A stretch of 22,261 nt of DNA from Streptomyces wedmorensis. GTDB taxonomy: Bacteria > Actinomycetota > Actinomycetes > Streptomycetales > Streptomycetaceae. The stretch is taken from positions 1 to 22,261 of the forward strand of contig NZ_JNWK01000086.1 in assembly GCF_000716445.1 (NCBI RefSeq), in the 5' to 3' direction. A model generated the notes under the pieces. It was not told the origin of the DNA and did not search any database. It was given only the letters and a program-made list of their open reading frames with translations. Position 1 is the first letter of the stretch; the number at the start of each line of letters is the position of its first letter. The translations under genes and the position numbers were made by a program. Below are positions 9,391 through 21,679 of this stretch, piece after piece.

Positions 9391-9445
9391 CCGCGTCCGC
9401 GGGCCGCGGGGCCCCACCCGGAGCCGGCCGGTTCCGGGCCGGGGC
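9391..9445. terminator. Possible bidirectional terminator between convergent fadB and merR
   Basis: The 55-nt convergent gap is dense in G/C inverted repeats: CCGCG-GGC-CGCGG near 9398-9410, and an imperfect larger stem from GAGCCGGCC to GGCCGGGGCTC. There is no T-run, as is common for Streptomyces terminators. The position favours a terminator; the stems are not perfect. Confidence 0.35.
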
Positions 9446-10180
9446 TCACCGGCTCCGGAACGCCGTCCTCAGCTCCTCGCTCAGCGAGCGCTGGAACGCC
9501 GTGACGAGGGCCTGGACCACCATCGGCTGCATGTGCGCCGAGAGCGACTTCATCGCGCTCAGATGGTCCGGGTCCTCCCCGCTCTCCCGGTACGGGCTCC
9601 ACACCTCGTCCCGGAAGAGCCGGGAGAGTTCCTGGGCGGCGGCGCGCGCGTGCTCCAGGAGGACGGTCCGGGAGGCCAGGATCGTCTCGTGCTCGATCGG
9701 AACGTCCAGCAACTCCACGCCGAGCCGGAGCAGCGACCCGTCGAGCCGGTACGTGTCGGCCTCGTCGGTCCGGTCCAGCACCCCCATCGCGGCCAGCCGG
9801 GCCACGTCCCGCTCGGTCAGCGCCCGCCCGGCCCGCCGCTCCATCTCCCGCCGCGTGATCGTCTCCGCCGACTCCGGCGCCCACGACGCCACCAGCGCCC
9901 GGTGGATCGCCAGGTCCTGCGCGCTCAGGTCCGCCGGCAACTGCTCCAGATACCGCTCGATCGCCGCCAGCGTCATCCCCTGCCGCTGCAACTCCTCGAT
10001 CAACGCCAGCCGCGACAGGTGCTCCGCCCCGTACCGACCCACCCGCCGCGCCCCGATCACCGGCGGCGGCAACAGCCCCCTCGTCCCGTAGAACCGCACC
10101 GTCCGCACGGTCACCCCGGCCCGCGCCGCCAACTCGTCCACGGTGTAACCGGACTCCTGCGCGTCACTCGCCTGCTCCAT
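9446..10180 (-). CDS. MerR family transcriptional regulator
   Basis: A 244-residue DNA-binding regulator. The MerR-type winged HTH occupies about residues 12-80: YTVDELAARAGVTVRTVRFY is the recognition helix-turn-helix, GLLPPPVIGARRVGRYGAEH the wing, and LIEELQRQGMTLAAIERYL the start of the dimerisation coiled coil. The 160-residue C-terminal part has no cysteines arranged for metal binding, so a metal sensor is unlikely; an organic effector is more probable. MerR-type regulators (for example LiuR in Proteobacteria) control branched-chain and fatty acid catabolism, and this gene ends 55 nt from fadB, so control of the beta-oxidation operon is a reasonable inference. An ACAG-N5-CTGT repeat lies just upstream of its own start. 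The ATG at 10180 fits the family N-terminus. Confidence 0.92.
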   Translation of the reverse strand: MEQASDAQESGYTVDELAARAGVTVRTVRFYGTRGLLPPPVIGARRVGRYGAEHLSRLALIEELQRQGMTLAAIERYLEQLPADLSAQDLAIHRALVASWAPESAETITRREMERRAGRALTERDVARLAAMGVLDRTDEADTYRLDGSLLRLGVELLDVPIEHETILASRTVLLEHARAAAQELSRLFRDEVWSPYRESGEDPDHLSAMKSLSAHMQPMVVQALVTAFQRSLSEELRTAFRSR

Positions 10181-10186
10181 GGTTCA

Positions 10187-10199
10187 ACAGTATTGCTGT
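10187..10199. promoter_or_regulatory. ACAG-N5-CTGT inverted repeat, possible MerR autoregulatory site
   Basis: ACAGTATTGCTGT, an inverted repeat with 4-bp arms and a 5-nt centre, overlapping the proposed -10 element of the merR gene. Its position fits autoregulation. It also lies only 30 nt from the -35 element of the divergent macrodomain gene. Confidence 0.4.
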
Positions 10200-10216
10200 C
10201 TCACCAGCTGTGTAAA
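10187..10216 (-). promoter_or_regulatory. Promoter candidate of merR gene
   Basis: Read on the minus strand: TTTACA (complement of 10211-10216) and TACTGT (complement of 10187-10192) with an 18-nt spacer. The TACTGT ends 6 nt before the ATG, so the transcript would be leaderless or nearly so. Confidence 0.45.
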
Positions 10217-10228
10217 AGAGTGGCGCGA

Positions 10229-10251
10229 CTGTCGGTGGTGGGCCGTAGCGT
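10229..10251 (+). promoter_or_regulatory. RecA-NDp (PafBC-type) DNA-damage promoter of macrodomain gene
   Basis: CTGTCGGTG (10229-10237), exactly 8 nt, then TAGCGT (10246-10251). The consensus is TTGTCRGTG-N8-TANNNT, so only the first base differs. The -10 ends 7 nt before the ATG at 10259, indicating a leaderless message. Confidence 0.65.
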
Positions 10252-10258
10252 GATCGTC

Positions 10259-10741
10259 ATGAACGGGATCACCTGCGTCCGGGGGGACGCGACCGCACCG
10301 GGCGGCAAGGGCGTCAAGATCGTCGCGCACGTCTGCAACGACCTCGGGGGCTGGGGCAAGGGCTTCGTCCTGGCCGTCTCGCGACGCTGGCCGGAACCGG
10401 AGGCGGCCTACCGGCGCTGGCACCGCGAGCGGGCGCGGAACGACTTCGGACTCGGCGCCGCCCAGTTCGTCCAGGTCGGTCCGTACGTCTGGGTGGCCAA
10501 CCTGGTGGGGCAGCGGGGGATGCGGACGGCTCGGAGCACCGGCGCGCCCGTGCGCTACGAGGCGATCGACGCGGCGCTCGGAAGGCTCGCGGACAAGGCG
10601 GTCGAGCTCGGCGCGTCCGTGCACATGCCGCGCATCGGCTGCGGGCTCGCCGGCGGTTCCTGGGCCAAGGTCGAGCCCCTGGTCCTCCGGCGTCTCGTGG
10701 ACCGGGGGATACCGGTCACCGTGTACGACTTCGGCGGGTAA
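10259..10741 (+). CDS. Macrodomain protein, TARG1/DarG-like ADP-ribosyl hydrolase
   Basis: A 160-residue stand-alone macrodomain. It binds ADP-ribose and probably removes it from protein or DNA. Blocks in order: CVRGDAT (6-12) contacting adenine; IVAHVCNDLGGWGKGF (21-36) with Asn27 and the catalytic-loop GKG; MPRIGCGLAGGSW (123-135), the phosphate loop; and the final strand PVTVYDF. The MPRIGCGL...W and terminal TVYD elements are those of the TARG1/DarG class rather than MacroD. The Asp that follows GCGL in TARG1 is Ala131 here, so chemistry may follow the DarG-like lysine (Lys34), which is inference. ATG 10259 is preferred over an in-frame GTG at 10250, because the promoter -10 overlaps that GTG. 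No DarT toxin is adjacent. It is divergent from merR by 78 bp. Confidence 0.88.
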   Translation: MNGITCVRGDATAPGGKGVKIVAHVCNDLGGWGKGFVLAVSRRWPEPEAAYRRWHRERARNDFGLGAAQFVQVGPYVWVANLVGQRGMRTARSTGAPVRYEAIDAALGRLADKAVELGASVHMPRIGCGLAGGSWAKVEPLVLRRLVDRGIPVTVYDFGG

Positions 10742-10769
10742 GGGACGCGGGGGCGGGGTGTCGTCCGGG

Positions 10770-10792
10770 CTGTCGGTGGGGCGGGCTAGAGT
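10770..10792 (+). promoter_or_regulatory. RecA-NDp (PafBC-type) DNA-damage promoter of the tail-anchored protein gene
   Basis: CTGTCGGTG (10770-10778), 8 nt, then TAGAGT (10787-10792), again one mismatch to TTGTCRGTG-N8-TANNNT. Its 9-nt -35 block is identical to the one upstream of the macrodomain gene. Transcription would start near 10799, giving a leader of about 37 nt with a GGGGGAG ribosome site. Confidence 0.65.
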
Positions 10793-10835
10793 CGGCGGCT
10801 GTTCGAGTCGGGGGCTGTGGAGCAGGGGGAGTGGG

Positions 10836-11336
10836 ATGTACGCGCAACTCAGGGAGACGGCGGACGAGTTGGCCGGAGTCCTGTGGCGGGAGCACACCGT
10901 GTACCGGGAGCGGGGCGGTGGGGTGGTGATCCGGGGGGAGCACGTGCGCCGGTGGATCAGCCTCGCGCCGACCGGGGGCAAGGACAGGGCGTTGCTGCGG
11001 GCGGGGCGGATCCTGGACGGGGGGACGACGGCGCCGGCGCGTACGGAGGTGGTCGTGGACCTGACCGCCGGGACGGCGGAGCTGGCGGCGGTGTGCCGCC
11101 GGCTGCTGGCCGACGTGGCGGCGGCCGCCGAGCCCGTCGCGCAGCCGTCCCGGGCCGGAAGGCCGGGGAGGCCGGAGAAGCGCGGAAGGCCGGGCCGGGC
11201 GGCTCGTGCCGCCCGGCCCGGCCGTGGGCCCCGGAAGGAGCGGCACACGAGTGCCGGCTCCTGGGTGGTCCTGCTCTGTGTCGCCGGGGTGGTCGGCGTG
11301 TGGCTCTACAGCGTCTTCGGGTCGTCCCCTTACTGA
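10836..11336 (+). CDS. Tail-anchored membrane protein with AT-hook-like basic linker, function unknown
   Basis: A 166-residue protein of no recognised family. The first 95 residues form an alpha/beta-looking soluble domain, with the strands VVIRGEHVRRWISLAP and RTEVVVDLTAGTAELAAV. Residues 105-137 are a Gly/Pro/Arg-rich linker with KRGRPGR (115-121), resembling the RGRP core of AT-hooks. A single hydrophobic span (143-161, WVVLLCVAGVVGVWLYSVF) ends five residues before the C-terminus, so the soluble part faces the cytoplasm. There is no signal peptide. The ATG at 10836 follows a GGGGGAG ribosome site. It has its own damage-type promoter 95 nt after the macrodomain gene and may also be read through from it. 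The 3' end is only 10 nt from the convergent phosphodiesterase gene. The linker is encoded partly by a perfect hairpin. Confidence 0.75.
   Translation: MYAQLRETADELAGVLWREHTVYRERGGGVVIRGEHVRRWISLAPTGGKDRALLRAGRILDGGTTAPARTEVVVDLTAGTAELAAVCRRLLADVAAAAEPVAQPSRAGRPGRPEKRGRPGRAARAARPGRGPRKERHTSAGSWVVLLCVAGVVGVWLYSVFGSSPY
11188..11223 (+). repeat. Perfect 16-bp hairpin inside the coding region
   Basis: The arms at 11188-11203 and 11208-11223 are exact reverse complements (second arm GCCGCCCGGCCCGGCC) around a TCGT loop. It looks like an intrinsic T-less terminator but lies in codons 118-130 of the tail-anchored protein, just before its membrane span. Confidence 0.7.
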
Positions 11337-11346
11337 GGGGGCCCGG

Positions 11347-12333
11347 TCAGAAGCCGGTGACGGGGTAGTGGTCGGAGAGGTTGGTGTAGGTGTACCGCGT
11401 GCCCCAGCTGGAGACCGTCCACGGGGCGCTCTGCTCCAGGACCACGTGGTTGGTCCAGCCGGCGGGGCGGGCGTTCCCGGCCCGGTAGAGGACGTAGTCG
11501 AGGTCCTCGCGCGGGTCGTCCGGGTAGCGCTCGGAGGCGATCGAGTTCAGCTCGGTGTCGAAGGAGTACGGGTGGCCGGTGCGGGCGTCGGCCCCGGCCA
11601 GGCCCGCGTCGGCGAGCATCGTGCCGTACTCGGGGGTGTGCGAGTCGACGTTCATGTCGCCGGCGACGATGACCTGCTCGCCCGCCGGGATGTTCTTGGC
11701 GTCGAGGAAGGCGTCGATCGCCTTGAACTGGCGGCTGCGCATCTGCGCCGCCTCGCCCGCCGAGCACCCGGGGTCGGTGGACTGGGCGTGGGTGCCGACC
11801 ACGTGGACCCGGCTGCCGGCGACGTCCAGGACGGTGTAGGCGAAGCCCTTGTTCGAGTACCAGTCGGCGCCGCACGCGTCCTTGTAGACGTACTGCTCCT
11901 TGCGGACGATCGGCCACTTGCTGAGGATTGTCACCCCGCCGTCCTCGGGCGTGGTCGTGGAGTACGCCCCGCCGGTCGCGTCCCAGCCGGTCTTGCTGCG
12001 GCCCATGACGGGGGTCTGGTACGGGTACTGCGCGGCGGCGTTCGCCTTGAGGGCGTCCGACGCGGAGTTGTCGAAGGCCTCCTGGACGACCACGACGTCC
12101 TGCCCCTGGAAGAAGGGGGCGGCGGGTATCGCCTTGGCCCGGTGGTCCTGGCCCCAGTTCGGGTAGAGCGTCTTGGAGAAGAGGAACGTGTTGTAGGTGA
12201 GGACCTTCAGCCGGGGGGCCTCGGCAGCCGCGGAGGAGGCGGACGCGGCCGGGGCGGCGGCCGCCAGGGTGGCGGCGGCGAGCGCGAGGGAGAGGGCGGC
12301 ACCGGGGACGCGACGGAACGCGGCGATCGACAC
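11347..12333 (-). CDS. Secreted sphingomyelinase C-like phosphodiesterase (EEP/DNase I fold)
   Basis: A 328-residue exported metal-dependent phosphodiesterase of the endonuclease/exonuclease/phosphatase superfamily, closest to bacterial neutral sphingomyelinase, which releases phosphocholine from sphingomyelin. The Sec signal peptide is residues 1 to about 33 (cleavage after ASAS or ASA). Catalytic set: Asn48 in LTYNTFLFS, Glu85 in VVVQEAFDN, His182 in VGTHAQS, Asp226 and Asn228 in VAGDMNVDS, and His322 in LSDHYPV. Cys154 and Cys190 are placed for the family disulfide. Length matches Gram-positive sphingomyelinases. Start chosen: GTG at 12333, with AGGAG five bases before; a longer frame to 12378 lacks a ribosome site and would bury the signal peptide. 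A shared sequence element lies upstream at 12391. Other EEP phospholipases are possible alternatives. Confidence 0.88.
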   Translation of the reverse strand: MSIAAFRRVPGAALSLALAAATLAAAAPAASASSAAAEAPRLKVLTYNTFLFSKTLYPNWGQDHRAKAIPAAPFFQGQDVVVVQEAFDNSASDALKANAAAQYPYQTPVMGRSKTGWDATGGAYSTTTPEDGGVTILSKWPIVRKEQYVYKDACGADWYSNKGFAYTVLDVAGSRVHVVGTHAQSTDPGCSAGEAAQMRSRQFKAIDAFLDAKNIPAGEQVIVAGDMNVDSHTPEYGTMLADAGLAGADARTGHPYSFDTELNSIASERYPDDPREDLDYVLYRAGNARPAGWTNHVVLEQSAPWTVSSWGTRYTYTNLSDHYPVTGF

Positions 12334-12390
12334 GTGAACTCCTGTGGAGACGTGGGGGGTTGGGCTGGCGCCGCACATACAATCAGCCGT

Positions 12391-12408
12391 GGTTACCTTC
12401 CGGTAGCC
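12391..12408. promoter_or_regulatory. GGTTACC-N4-GGTAGCC inverted repeat, shared element copy A
   Basis: Arms of 7 bp with one mismatch around TTCC. The core TTACCTTCCGGTA (12393-12405) recurs with two changes at 19182-19194 before another secreted-protein gene. It lies 58 nt upstream of the sphingomyelinase GTG and 96 nt upstream of the b-subunit gene. Confidence 0.4.
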
Positions 12409-12491
12409 TTTGGGTGCCGGGAATCTTGCCGAGCGAGCACGATCACGCCAACTCTCCTCCCGGTGTCGGAATTGTCCTTGTTTGAACCAGG

Positions 12492-12497
12492 TAGAAT
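12492..12497 (+). promoter_or_regulatory. -10 element TAGAAT of the orphan b-subunit gene
   Basis: A good -10 hexamer ending 6 nt before the ATG at 12504, with no ribosome site in between, so a leaderless transcript is likely. No convincing -35 at optimal spacing: TTGTCC at 12472-12477 would leave only 14 nt. Confidence 0.45.
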
Positions 12498-12503
12498 GCG
12501 CGC

Positions 12504-12989
12504 ATGACCCTCGCGAACTCGCAGATCTTCAAGACGGACCTCGGTCCCCTCAACCCCGTCTGGGCCGAGCTCATCCTCGGCCTCGTGGTGTTCGGACTGA
12601 CCTTCCTCATCCTGGCGAAGGGCATCCTGCCGAAGATCAAGCGGACCCTCGAGGAGCGCGAGGACGCCATCGACGGCGGCACCGACCGCGCCGACGACCT
12701 GCGCGCCGAGGCCACGCGGATCCGTGAGCAGTACGAGGCGGAGCTCGCCGAGGCCCGCCACGACGCCGCGCGCATCCGCTCCCGCGCCACCGAGGAGGGC
12801 TCGGCCGCCATCGCCGCCGCCCGCGCCGAGGGCATCGCCGAGCGCGACGCCATCGTCGCCGCCGGCGTCGAGAAGATCGCCGCCGAGCGCGCCGCCGCCG
12901 AGCGCGAGCTCACCGCGGACGTCGACGCCTGGGCCCACGCCCTCGCCGCCCGCATCGTCGGCGAGCCGGTCGGCGCCGACCGCGGCTGA
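12504..12989 (+). CDS. Orphan F0 ATP synthase b-subunit-like protein
   Basis: A 161-residue protein with the layout of the ATP-synthase b subunit (AtpF). A short periplasmic N-terminus (MTLANSQIFKTDLGPLNP) precedes one membrane span, AELILGLVVFGLTFLILA (about 21-38). Then come the conserved polar hinge KGILPKIKRTLEEREDAIDGG and a long charged, Ala-rich coiled coil to the end. It is shorter than the usual Streptomyces AtpF (about 180 residues) and lacks the C-terminal delta-subunit-binding end. No other ATP-synthase genes are nearby, so this is a paralogue outside the atp operon. It may be an alternative stator, or a stand-alone membrane coiled coil. A possible leaderless promoter precedes it and a strong terminator follows, so it is monocistronic. 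Confidence 0.85.
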   Translation: MTLANSQIFKTDLGPLNPVWAELILGLVVFGLTFLILAKGILPKIKRTLEEREDAIDGGTDRADDLRAEATRIREQYEAELAEARHDAARIRSRATEEGSAAIAAARAEGIAERDAIVAAGVEKIAAERAAAERELTADVDAWAHALAARIVGEPVGADRG

Positions 12990-13006
12990 CCCGTACACCC
13001 CACAGA

Positions 13007-13046
13007 GGGGCCGTCGCCCGGCCGCGAGAGCCCGGGCGACGGCCCC
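13007..13046 (+). terminator. Strong intrinsic terminator after b-subunit gene
   Basis: GGGGCCGTCGCCCGG (13007-13021) and its exact reverse complement (13032-13046) form a 15-bp stem with a 10-nt loop, followed by TTCG. It starts 18 nt after the stop codon. Confidence 0.85.
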
Positions 13047-13088
13047 TTCGTCGTGAGTGGCAGCCTGGAACAGAGGAGGAGAGGAACC

Positions 13089-13970
13089 ATGCCGACCGGG
13101 ACGCACCCCGACCGGGCCCCGTCCGACGACCCGGCACCACCGCCCGTCGGCGGGGTGCTGTGGACCGTCGCCGGTGACATCCGGGCACTCCTCATGCTGC
13201 CCGCCGCCCTCGCCATGCAGGTCGCCCACCCCGCGATCGGTGCCGGAGTCGACGAGCACTCCGTCTTCCGCACCGATCCCTGGGGCCGCGGCGAACGCTC
13301 CCTGCGCTCGGTCCAGCTGTGGATCTACGGAGGCGAGGACGCGGCGCGGGAAGGCCGCCGGCTCCGGGAGCTGCACCGGGACATCCGGGGCACCGACGCC
13401 CACGGCCGCCGCTACCACGCGCTCACCCCGGCCTACTACTCCTGGGTGCACGCGACGGGATTCCCGGTCTACCTGCGCGGGCTCGGCCTCCTCGCCCGCC
13501 CCCTCACCGAGCCGCAGCAGCGGCAGCTGTACGCCGAGTGGCTCCAGGTCGGCCGGGTCCTCGGCATCCACGACCGGGACATGCCGCAGACGATCGAGGA
13601 GTTCTGGCCGTACTACCGCAAGGTCCTCGCCGACGAGCTGGAGGCGACCGTCGTCGTGCGGGAGCTGCTCGACACCGACCTCCCGGTGCCCGCCCCGGAC
13701 CGCGGCCCGCTGCCCGTCCGGCTCGCCCTCCGGCTCCTCTGGCCCGCCCTGCGCCGCCCGTTCCTGCGGCTGCGCGCCTTCCTCACCGTCGGCCTGATGC
13801 CGGGGGACGCCCGGGAGGCCATCGGTCTGGAGTGGACCGACGCCCAGGAGCGGACACTGCGCCGGTACGCCCGGATCGTCCGGGCCGTCGTGCCCGTCCT
13901 GCCCGAACGGCTCCGCTACCTGCCCCTGGCCAGGAAGGCGCGCGAGGCCGCCCGCAGCGCCGCGCGCTGA
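13089..13970 (+). CDS. Oxygenase MpaB family protein (DUF2236)
   Basis: A 293-residue protein of the DUF2236/MpaB group. Its relatives include the latex-clearing protein and the fungal mycophenolate side-chain oxygenase MpaB, and are b-type haem oxygenases or predicted as such. Conserved landmarks: an N-terminal helix with LLMLPAALAMQVAHPAIGAGVDEHSVF (His47, His57), the middle helix LTPAYYSWVHATGFPVY (His121, a candidate haem ligand or proximal site), then AEWLQVGRVLGI and a C-terminal helical bundle. There is no signal peptide and no complete membrane span. The ATG at 13089 is preceded by an excellent GAGGAGGAG ribosome site, so the in-frame GTG at 13053 is rejected. The substrate is unknown. 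It is convergent with the M1 peptidase gene, 24 nt apart. Confidence 0.87.
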   Translation: MPTGTHPDRAPSDDPAPPPVGGVLWTVAGDIRALLMLPAALAMQVAHPAIGAGVDEHSVFRTDPWGRGERSLRSVQLWIYGGEDAAREGRRLRELHRDIRGTDAHGRRYHALTPAYYSWVHATGFPVYLRGLGLLARPLTEPQQRQLYAEWLQVGRVLGIHDRDMPQTIEEFWPYYRKVLADELEATVVVRELLDTDLPVPAPDRGPLPVRLALRLLWPALRRPFLRLRAFLTVGLMPGDAREAIGLEWTDAQERTLRRYARIVRAVVPVLPERLRYLPLARKAREAARSAAR

Positions 13971-13994
13971 CGGACGGCCCGGTCACGGCAGGGC

Positions 13995-15560
13995 TCAGTG
14001 GCCGCCGTGCTCGTCGCGCTCGTGGATCGTGTCCGTCGCCGCGATCTTCTTCCACGACTTCGGCTGCACGGGCTTCACGGGCGTCCCGGCCCGGCCGGTC
14101 TTCCCGGCCGCGGAAGACGACGCCGCGGGTGCGGCCGACCGGGCTTCCGCGCCGGACGCGGCCGCCGTCGGAGCGGACGGCTTCGACGGCTGGTACAGCC
14201 AGGTGTCGAAGAGCGCCGCCAGCGGCTTCCCGGAGATCCGCTCCGCGTACCGCACGAAGTCGCCGACCCGCGCGTTGCCGTAGGCGAACTCCTGCGGCCA
14301 GCCCTTCAGGATCGCGAAGAAGTCCTCGTCGCCGATCTCGTTGCGCAGGGCCTGGAGCGCCAGCGCGCCCCGGTCGTAGACGGCGGTGTGGAACTGGTTG
14401 TCCGGGCCCGGGTCACCCGGCTTGACCGTCCAGAACGGGTCTTCGGCCGACCGGAGGGCGTACACGTAGTCCGCCAGCTCCTGCGCCGTGCCCTCGCCCT
14501 CCTTCTCCGACCACAGCCACTGGCTGTAGCGGGCGAAGCCCTCGTTGACCCAGATGTCCTTCCAGTCGTGGACGGACACGCTGTCGCCGTACCACTGGTG
14601 CGCCAGCTCGTGCACGACCACCGACACGTTCGCGCCGTTGGCGAACTGCCGCGGGCTGTAGAACGGCCGGGTCTGCGTCTCCAGCGCGAAACCGCTGGTC
14701 ACGTTCGGCACGTACCCGCCGAGGGAGTTGAACGGGTAGGGACCGAAGACCGATTCCAGCCACTCGGCGACCTCGGTCGTGCGCTCGATCGAGGCGCGCG
14801 CCGCGCCCGCGTTGTCGCCGAGATCCTTGCTGTACGCGTTGAGGACCGGCAGCCCGTTCGCCGTCTTGTCCGTCGTGATGTCGAACTTCCCGACGGCCAG
14901 AGTGGCCAGATAAGGCGCCTGCGGCTTGTTGGAGCGCCAGCTGTAGCGGGTCCAGCCGAGCCGAGACGACTGCGACTGCAGCACGCCGTTGCTGATGGCC
15001 TGGTGGCCGTCCGGCACCGAGACGGAGACGTCGAAGGTGGCCTTGTCCCGCGGGTGGTCGTTGGACGGGAACCACCAGACGGCCGAGTCCGGCTCCTGCG
15101 CGGCGACGCCGCCGTCCGGGGTGCGGGCCCAGGCCGACCAGCCGTCGATCTTGAACTCGGAGGGCTTGCCGGCGTAGCGGACGACGACCGTGACCGCCTT
15201 CCCCTTCTCCAGCGGGGTGGCCGGGGTGACCTCCAGCTCGTGGTCGCCCGACGTGGCGAGCCGCGCGATCCGGCCGTTGACCCGGACCTCGCTGACCTTC
15301 AGCCCGAGGTCGAGGTTGAAGCGGGACAGGTTCTGCCGGGTGGTGGCGAGGATCGTCGCCGTGCCCTCCAGGAGGTCCGTCGCGGGCTGGTACTTCAGGC
15401 GCAGGTCGTAATGGGAGACGTCGTAACCGCCGTTGCCGGCGGCGGGGTAGTACGAGTCCCCGATGCCGGTCGCACCGGGGGTGAAGTCGGCCGCCGATGC
15501 CGGGATCGCCAGCAGCAAGGAGGCCGCGAGGGCGCTCGGAACGATGATTCTGCGATGCAC
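13995..15560 (-). CDS. Secreted M1 family metallopeptidase (short form)
   Basis: A 521-residue exported aminopeptidase-like zinc enzyme. The signal peptide is residues 1-23 (ASLLLAIPASA, cleavage before ADF). The M1 N-terminal beta domain leads to the thermolysin-like domain with HELAHQWYGDS, giving His317, Glu318 and His321. The third ligand is Glu340 in WVNEGFARY, and the transition-state Tyr is Tyr395 in AVYDRGAL. The exopeptidase GxMEN strand is altered to TSGFALETQTR. The large C-terminal domain of PepN/ERAP enzymes (850 or more residues) is absent. The tail from residue 460 is a Ser/Ala/Lys-rich low-complexity linker ending in the His-rich HERDEHGGH. The GTG start at 15560 follows a GGAG ribosome site. 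It is divergent from the S15 peptidase. Confidence 0.93.
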   Translation of the reverse strand: MHRRIIVPSALAASLLLAIPASAADFTPGATGIGDSYYPAAGNGGYDVSHYDLRLKYQPATDLLEGTATILATTRQNLSRFNLDLGLKVSEVRVNGRIARLATSGDHELEVTPATPLEKGKAVTVVVRYAGKPSEFKIDGWSAWARTPDGGVAAQEPDSAVWWFPSNDHPRDKATFDVSVSVPDGHQAISNGVLQSQSSRLGWTRYSWRSNKPQAPYLATLAVGKFDITTDKTANGLPVLNAYSKDLGDNAGAARASIERTTEVAEWLESVFGPYPFNSLGGYVPNVTSGFALETQTRPFYSPRQFANGANVSVVVHELAHQWYGDSVSVHDWKDIWVNEGFARYSQWLWSEKEGEGTAQELADYVYALRSAEDPFWTVKPGDPGPDNQFHTAVYDRGALALQALRNEIGDEDFFAILKGWPQEFAYGNARVGDFVRYAERISGKPLAALFDTWLYQPSKPSAPTAAASGAEARSAAPAASSSAAGKTGRAGTPVKPVQPKSWKKIAATDTIHERDEHGGH

Positions 15561-20296: not shown

Positions 20297-21679
20297 ATGA
20301 TCGATGCCTCACTCGGCGCAAGTCCGTTCCTGATACCGGCCCTTGCCCTGATCCTCCTGGCCACGGCCGTCACCGCCTGGCTGCTGCACCGGCGAAACGG
20401 CCGGGTGCCGGCGGCCCCCCTGGGCGCCGCGGCCTCGGGCGCGGCGGTCCTCGCGGCCACCCTCTCGCCCCTCGGGACACACGCACCGGCGATGCGGGTG
20501 TGCTCGCTGCCGTCGGACCTGGCGGCCTCGCTCTTCGCGGACCAGGGCCTGATGAACATCGCCCTCTTCGTGCCGTCGGCCCTCTTCCTCACCGTGGCCA
20601 CCCGGCGACCCGTCACCGTCGTCGCCGCGCTGGCGCTGCTTTCCGGGGCCATCGAGGTGGCGCAGGCGCTGACCCCCGGCATGGCCAGAGCCTGCGACGC
20701 CTCCGACTTCGGCGCCAACCTGCTCGGCGCGCTGGTGGGTTGTCTCGCCGGGCGCGCGTGGAGCCGACGCCGCGCCGACCGTACGACCCCTCAGGCCACC
20801 GGCCACAGCCGGGCCCGCGACCTCCGCCTCGGCGTGATCGTCTCCGTCTGCGGAGGGATCCTGCTGTCCGCCGTGGCCCTGCCCGCGCTGGCGTTCACGG
20901 CGTCCGACGCGCGCGCCGACCAACGGCCGGACGCGGCCCAACTGGCGGCGGCGGCCGATGCCGTGCGGGCCTTCTTCGGACCCGAAGCGGTCCCGACCGA
21001 CGTCCGGTACACCCCGGCGACGGAACGGCGGCCCGGCAGGGTCGACGTGAGCACCGGATCGGGCAACATCACGCTCGCCTGGCCCTCTCGCGAGGTGACA
21101 TCGGGCCAACTCGCGGCCGTCGTGCCCGAGAAGGCCTCGCAGGCGAGGCTGACGGAGGGGACGGCCCGCGAGACGGGGGACGCGTTCGCCGCGAAGCACT
21201 TCCCCTGGGCCCTGCGGGGCAGCGAGGCGCAGGTCTTCGCCGCCGGCGGGCCCGATCAGCAGGCCAAGGTGGTGCAGTGGCGCAGTCGCGTCGACGGCGT
21301 CCTCATGCCGATGCGGCTGGACGTCGTCATCGGAGCCGACCGGAAGATCCTCTCCTTCGCCGCCAGGAACGAACACGCCACCGACCTCCCCCGCGCGACC
21401 GTGACCCGGGAGCAGGCCACGGCGAAGGCGCGGGCCGTGTACCCCGACGCGCGCGTCACCAGCAGCGAGTTGATGGCCCGGCTCGACAACCGGGGCCGTT
21501 GGCGCGTCTGTTGGATGGTCTCCCTCACCCCGCCCGCCGGAATGGCACCACCCACGACGACCACCGGTCCCGGAACCGCGTCGGGGCGGTCGGCGTCAAC
21601 GGGCCCCACACTGTTCGGACTTGCGTTCGACGCGGTGACTGGTGATCCTTTCTCGGGCCCGACCACGCCCCGCGCGTAG
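20297..21679 (+). CDS. VanZ-like membrane protein fused to PepSY-like extracellular half
   Basis: A 460-residue membrane protein. Residues 1-155 are VanZ-like: spans at about 9-30, 41-59, 86-101, 104-124 and 138-152. They carry the family signature NIALFVPSALF (Asn87), SGAIEVAQAL (Glu120, Gln123), then an Arg and Asp pair before ASDFGANLLGALVG (Asp137). VanZ proteins affect glycopeptide tolerance and envelope assembly by unclear means. A sixth span (178-200) leads to an external domain of 250 residues. Its end, VTREQATAKARAVYPDARV followed by GRWRVCWMVSL, looks like a PepSY repeat. The tail is Thr/Ser/Pro-rich. The ATG at 20297 follows a weak CGGGAA site. It stands between two small secreted proteins, both in the same direction. 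Confidence 0.78.
   Translation: MIDASLGASPFLIPALALILLATAVTAWLLHRRNGRVPAAPLGAAASGAAVLAATLSPLGTHAPAMRVCSLPSDLAASLFADQGLMNIALFVPSALFLTVATRRPVTVVAALALLSGAIEVAQALTPGMARACDASDFGANLLGALVGCLAGRAWSRRRADRTTPQATGHSRARDLRLGVIVSVCGGILLSAVALPALAFTASDARADQRPDAAQLAAAADAVRAFFGPEAVPTDVRYTPATERRPGRVDVSTGSGNITLAWPSREVTSGQLAAVVPEKASQARLTEGTARETGDAFAAKHFPWALRGSEAQVFAAGGPDQQAKVVQWRSRVDGVLMPMRLDVVIGADRKILSFAARNEHATDLPRATVTREQATAKARAVYPDARVTSSELMARLDNRGRWRVCWMVSLTPPAGMAPPTTTTGPGTASGRSASTGPTLFGLAFDAVTGDPFSGPTTPRA

Follow-up and report, generated by a model that had tools for sequence, protein, structure and literature searches.

The 22,261-nt stretch of Streptomyces wedmorensis DNA analysed here (the window) carries two PafBC-type motifs in front of neighbouring genes, one for a macrodomain protein and the other for a predicted tail-anchored protein. 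Both are likely to be promoters of the −26/−10 PafBC type, site 1 as an old, conserved regulon member and site 2 as a lineage-specific one. The macrodomain half of this picture was already known; what is new is the genus-wide motif count and the second-gene family, whose predicted damage control occurs in only part of the species and thus lends itself to studies of how promoters enter and leave a regulon.

Both motifs were read directly in the window sequence at the positions that the original prediction had given (Table 1). As it had also held, each departs from TTGTCRGTG-N8-TANNNT, a consensus reportedly due to Gamulin in 2004, only at the first base and keeps the exact 8-nt gap. Site 1 is CTGTCGGTG-gtgggccg-TAGCGT and site 2 is CTGTCGGTG-gggcgggc-TAGAGT; they share the octamer TGTCGGTG and match eight of the nine consensus positions each. 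That two such matches would be improbable by chance was confirmed. The core TGTCRGTG-N8-TANNNT has two exact matches in the window and still two when one mismatch is allowed, whereas shuffled windows searched with up to one mismatch gave a mean of 0.11, with two or more matches in 1 of 100 shuffles.

Table 1. Features of the window discussed in the text.
Feature	Position	Strand	Basis
MerR-family regulator, transcribed divergently from the macrodomain gene; rival control point	9446..10180	−	Pfam MerR_1, E 6.7e-21
Site 1, candidate PafBC/RecA-NDp-type promoter CTGTCGGTG-N8-TAGCGT of the macrodomain gene	10229..10251	+	Motif match, orthologue conservation
Macrodomain ADP-ribosyl hydrolase, SCO6735 orthologue by sequence, 160 aa	10259..10741	+	PDB 5e3b, Pfam Macro
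Site 2, candidate PafBC-type element CTGTCGGTG-N8-TAGAGT of the second gene	10770..10792	+	Motif match, orthologue alignment, chance tests
TGTTCGA, often CTTGTTCGAAT; expected transcription-start/5′-leader region of the second gene	10800..10806	+	Alignment of orthologues
Second gene, 166-aa protein: predicted N-terminal alpha-beta5-alpha domain, linker, C-terminal hydrophobic helix	10836..11336	+	AlphaFold2 model
Sphingomyelin phosphodiesterase, transcribed towards the second gene; right-hand syntenic marker	11347..12378	−	TIGR03395, 312 bits (cut-off 248); synteny

The RecA-NDp motif is a strong signal throughout the genus. In the S. wedmorensis genome (9.38 Mb in 259 contigs), the core matches exactly 41 times, against 2 for the reversed pattern, and 49 same-genus genomes, this one included, hold 2263 sites in total against 26, with 20–76 sites per genome (median 44). 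Counts were mostly lower in 32 genomes from other families, three of which had none. One genome from another family of the same order (G045) held 108 exact sites, the top count among the genomes searched. Because the first base at the 41 S. wedmorensis sites is T in 20, C in 13, A in 4 and G in 4, this position appears hardly constrained. Such variation distinguishes these candidate sites from the mycobacterial PafBC promoters, with which they share the TTGTCRGTG-N8-TANNNT layout. The mycobacterial regulon is treated in the cited sections of PMC11804915, PMC8223512 and PMC6789036. The cited part of PMC8223512 also states that the RecA-NDp promoter reaches other Actinobacteria. For S. venezuelae, the passage cited from PMC9380542 reports that conservation of the M. 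smegmatis motif seemed lacking in an initial search and that a response was still to be shown. Our count over 49 genomes, in which S. venezuelae is not singled out, runs against that remark, and it opens the existence of a PafBC response in Streptomyces to direct testing. The open-licence PubMed Central literature yielded no title on an experimental PafBC regulon in Streptomyces. A PafBC regulon in this genus, strongly indicated but still putative, is the larger lead.

The genes that follow the 41 sites were also considered. The open reading frame downstream of each site was chosen mechanically, ruvC alone being picked by hand; 30 of the 41 were scanned besides the two window genes, and nine were left unscanned. 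DNA repair or replication families were matched by 12 of the 30. Family matches comprised recA, uvrB, pcrA/uvrD, radA, a dnaN-type clamp, a yoaA/dinG-type helicase, dnaX and ruvC, with uvrB, pcrA and the yoaA/dinG-type helicase scoring below curated cut-offs and being cut at the end of the fetched stretch. Further matches were AlkZ-like, PD-(D/E)XK, uracil-DNA-glycosylase (UDG) and RecD2-HHH. A WGR-domain protein, ribosomal S6, transport, protease and acetyltransferase families and families of unknown function account for others, and some scanned frames matched no family at the thresholds used. The names mfd and ogt were given by eye only, with no NCBIfam match at E ≤ 1e-30. Leaderless messages are suggested by the fact that the −10 element ends 6 or 7 nt upstream of the chosen start at 19 of the 41 sites.

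The same genome encodes PafA (Pup_ligase, E 6.7e-162), followed on the same strand by two adjacent WYL-WCX proteins, the second of which matches HTH_PafC (E 1.9e-31); pafA, pafB and pafC thus lie on one stretch. Together, the apparent repair-gene targets and the pafA–pafB–pafC locus fit a PafBC-type regulon, and the mycobacterial PafBC regulon, in the published sections used here, likewise has recA, ruvA and uvr genes among its targets. The genome gives nine WYL-domain matches, so the motif might be read by a WYL-type activator other than PafBC. We regard this as quite improbable given both the pafA–pafB–pafC locus and the presence of recA, ruvC, uvrB and radA downstream of the sites, genes of the kind named as PafBC targets in the sections cited. 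Two other loci drew attention. On contig C52 (14500–17800, L149), a pair of oppositely oriented PafBC-type sites, separated by about 1.2 kb, precede uvrB and a gene that resembles, by eye, a DNA methylguanine methyltransferase. On contig C66, a perfect PafBC-type site is followed, 7 nt on, by the start of a WGR-domain gene with a beta-propeller-like part (L154:695-2125:+). WGR is a PARP-associated domain, a link that could be relevant to the identity of the ADP-ribose transferase.

With PafBC as the preferred reader of both sites, the activated regulator would dock on TGTCGGTG and bridge to sigma region 4, as described for mycobacterial structures in the cited part of PMC11804915. Housekeeping RNA polymerase would then start about 7 nt after TANNNT, a distance that we infer. 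By analogy with those complexes, binding of the −26 motif by the helix-turn-helix of PafB, with PafC set against sigma region 4, is highly probable at site 1 and, for site 2 in this strain, somewhat favoured. Site 1 would drive a leaderless mRNA for the macrodomain protein and would belong to the old, conserved part of a regulon found across the genus. Site 2 would be the own promoter of the unrelated tail-anchored protein gene, with a conserved −10 element and an upstream half that, here and in several lineages scattered over the tree, either turned into a PafBC element or has always been one. Because the PafBC half is found only in these lineages, induction of the second gene by damage through its own promoter would be a lineage-specific trait. 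Wherever the two genes adjoin with no terminator in between, transcripts begun at site 1 could run on into the second gene and contribute to this response.

By full-length similarity and the conserved glutamine, the protein encoded behind site 1 is an SCO6735-type macrodomain. Its best PDB match is 5e3b (E 1.2e-81, query residues 1–159), and it has Gln at the position of the essential Gln85, counted on the 5e3b alignment. The Pfam Macro model gives 18.6 bits, under the cut-off of 22, and the protein is 92% identical in S. tanashiensis. In the cited sections of PMC9411070, an SCO6735-type macrodomain removes thymidine-linked ADP-ribose from DNA and loses activity without Gln85. The activity expected of this type is the release of ADP-ribose from thymidine in DNA or from glutamate. 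The start codon lies 7 nt after the −10 element, and the mRNA is therefore probably leaderless. A PafBC/RecA-NDp-type assignment of this promoter, as originally predicted, has strong sequence support and is already published for SCO6735. The portion of PMC5087735 used here (published in 2016) places a RecA-NDp promoter upstream of SCO6735 and its homologues in several Streptomyces species. It reports that SCO6735 is induced 5-fold by UV, that its deletion causes no significant sensitivity to UV or MMS and that the deletion mutant has raised actinorhodin; that portion mentions neither a second site nor a dependence on PafBC. Site 1 thus has its counterpart in S. coelicolor, at an orthologous gene with the same promoter type. 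A difference is the upstream neighbour, which in S. coelicolor is the amino-acid permease gene SCO6734, according to the cited part of PMC9411070.

Site 1 is both known and well conserved. The comparison used 96 unique macrodomain loci, namely the fetched macrodomain loci, which are the best 80 of 570 and thus biased to close relatives, together with the second-gene loci. The full octamer with TANNNT was present in 77 of the 96, and at least seven of its eight bases with TANNNT in 89, so that the site is conserved upstream of orthologues; seven loci failed. In the 89, the −10 element ends 6 nt before the start codon in 65 loci and 7 nt before it in 15. An alternative is that the divergent MerR-family regulator mainly governs this region and that the RecA-NDp motif is secondary. 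A merR match (E ≤ 1e-10) is indeed found in the flanks of 61 of the 80 macrodomain loci and is divergent in all 61, as in the window, but it lies within 400 bases in 26 and farther away in the remaining 35. Moreover, site 1 is kept at seven or more octamer bases in 17 of the 19 loci in which no merR was detected, and the only sigma-70-like match of the scan (10189–10216) reads towards merR. UV induction still occurs in S. coelicolor, where the upstream neighbour is the permease gene (cited sections of PMC5087735 and PMC9411070). Principal control by MerR is accordingly very unlikely, and we retain site 1 as the probable promoter of the macrodomain gene.

The second gene encodes a protein without any Pfam or NCBIfam match at E ≤ 1. 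In the AlphaFold2 model, ten-residue block means of pLDDT are 85–97 over residues 1–100 and below 50 over residues 107–138, a disordered linker that is followed by a hydrophobic helix at residues 140–162. The modelled C-terminal helix agrees with the tail-anchored topology ascribed to this protein beforehand. Tentative candidates for the fold of the protein are a type III secretion chaperone-like and a CapZ-like one. Named homologues among those listed are Streptomyces proteins of unknown function; the S. venezuelae homologue (P0063) is 78% identical, and a DNA match to the gene at E ≤ 1e-10 was found in 79 of 392 same-genus genomes. The ATG lies 43 nt downstream of the end of site 2 and is preceded by a G-rich, ribosome-binding-like stretch.

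Site 2 was followed across 92 unique second-gene loci, of which 81 had an accepted −10 element and were analysed. The other 11 were dropped, four of them with no candidate at all; one of the 11, L212, shows the beginning CTGTC close to the octamer position. The −10 element, some 42 nt upstream of the start codon and in most loci TAGAGT, is widely kept in the alignment. So is the TGTTCGA that stands just after it, in which, as in its frequent form CTTGTTCGAAT, no known operator was recognised. At the exact PafBC offset, the octamer is perfect in 5 of the 81 promoters (the window, L166, L046, L207 and L144) and matches at seven or more positions in 10. The 99 other offsets gave no perfect octamer and means of 0.00 rows at 8/8 and 0.04 rows at seven or more. 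Column frequencies of the motif-free rows predict 0.02 and 0.35, respectively, and shuffles of the rows give 0.004 and 0.07. When six of eight matches suffice, the peak is gone, with 13 rows at the exact offset against 19 at offset +3, where the mean octamer score is also higher (4.02 versus 3.60). An octamer with at least seven matches is absent from 71 of the 81 promoters, close relatives included, and site 2 is therefore not generally needed.

A tree was built from 80 of the 81 proteins, L161 (<90 aa) being left out. On it, the ten rows with site 2 account for 7 label changes, L144 and L207 being among them, compared with a mean of 9.6 for shuffled labels, so that the element has in part been passed down and in part arisen or disappeared independently. 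The rows are related, so the raw counts overstate independence and the 7 changes are the safer measure. The predicted PafBC promoter at site 2 thus holds in one respect, a frequency above chance at the exact offset, and falls short in the other, conservation, with at least seven of eight bases in only 10 of 81 orthologues. From these alignments, the element is more than chance, although most orthologues lack the octamer, and it is probably of the PafBC type, patchily distributed on a promoter that is conserved in other respects.

Coincidence would account for site 2 differently: the promoter would be of the ordinary housekeeping type, the G-rich upstream stretch would happen to read TGTCGGTG, and any damage response would come by read-through from site 1. 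The persistence of the −10 element without the octamer in most orthologues is in line with this view. Only 94 bases separate the macrodomain stop codon from the next ATG, and no terminator-like structure was found in 9400–12400, which includes the interval between the genes (a weak scan, shuffles giving 0.4), so that read-through is possible. At one locus (L173), only the first macrodomain codons seem to be left; a promoter resembling site 1, CTGTCAGTG-N8-TAGCGT, still stands in front, and the next gene is the second gene, without an octamer of its own. However, five perfect octamers at the exact PafBC offset, set against none at the 99 others and 0.02 expected, are difficult to reconcile with coincidence. 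Four of 80 remain when the window is excluded, and for two of these (L144 and L207) the fetched stretch shows no macrodomain gene. We therefore consider coincidence rather unlikely and keep to a PafBC-type element at site 2.

The original prediction had also proposed a joint role of the two proteins after DNA damage, which found no support beyond adjacency in some species. The genes adjoin in 37 of the 81 analysed loci. The order merR, macrodomain, second gene, sphingomyelinase occurs in 15 of the 80 macrodomain loci and the second gene in 16. Among adjacent loci, site 1 has at least seven octamer matches in 28 of 32 tested, against 7 of 37 for site 2, and is perfect in 25 of 32, against 3 of 37. 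Five of the 37 (L127, L159, L165, L178 and L186) were left out of the site 1 comparison, the macrodomain alignment falling short of the protein start. Site 2 was present in 7 of 37 adjacent and 3 of 44 non-adjacent loci, a difference that is not significant (Fisher p 0.17). In the alignments of the same five loci, the macrodomain gene looks broken or partial, and in some loci where it looks so, or is all but gone, the second gene is open. Such apparent decay, seen in several relatives, indicates that the second gene is retained at loci that are losing the macrodomain gene.

A second upstream element was encountered in this family. In 11 of the 80 tree rows, TGGYGTGTA-N8-TANNNT takes the octamer's position, and at L217–L226 it lies at the second gene exactly where the PafBC box would be, with TAGAGT in 9 of 10. 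Across 16 genomes, TGGYGTGTA-N8-TANNNT matched once in each of the 10 picked for it and not in the other 6, and the reversed pattern matched 3 times in the same 16. At the stringency used, these counts mark the element as private to the second-gene family and not as a regulon motif. More tentatively, and with less confidence than in the reading of the two sites above, Streptomyces may have a full PafBC-type damage regulon that comprises tens of genes, with leaderless messages for many. In this scheme, the tail-anchored family would keep a fixed −10 element whose upstream half switches repeatedly between a PafBC box, a TGGYGTGTA box and neither, and regulon membership would evolve by the swap of a nine-base module.

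DNA-damage control in Streptomyces is also exercised by the LexA/SOS regulon, described for S. venezuelae in the cited sections of PMC9380542. The LexA consensus given there has no match with up to two mismatches in the part of the window from 9507 to 14773. An exact match to the LexA consensus TCGAAC-N4-GNNCGA lies at 21615–21630 on the − strand, towards the 3′ end within the open frame 20297–21679.
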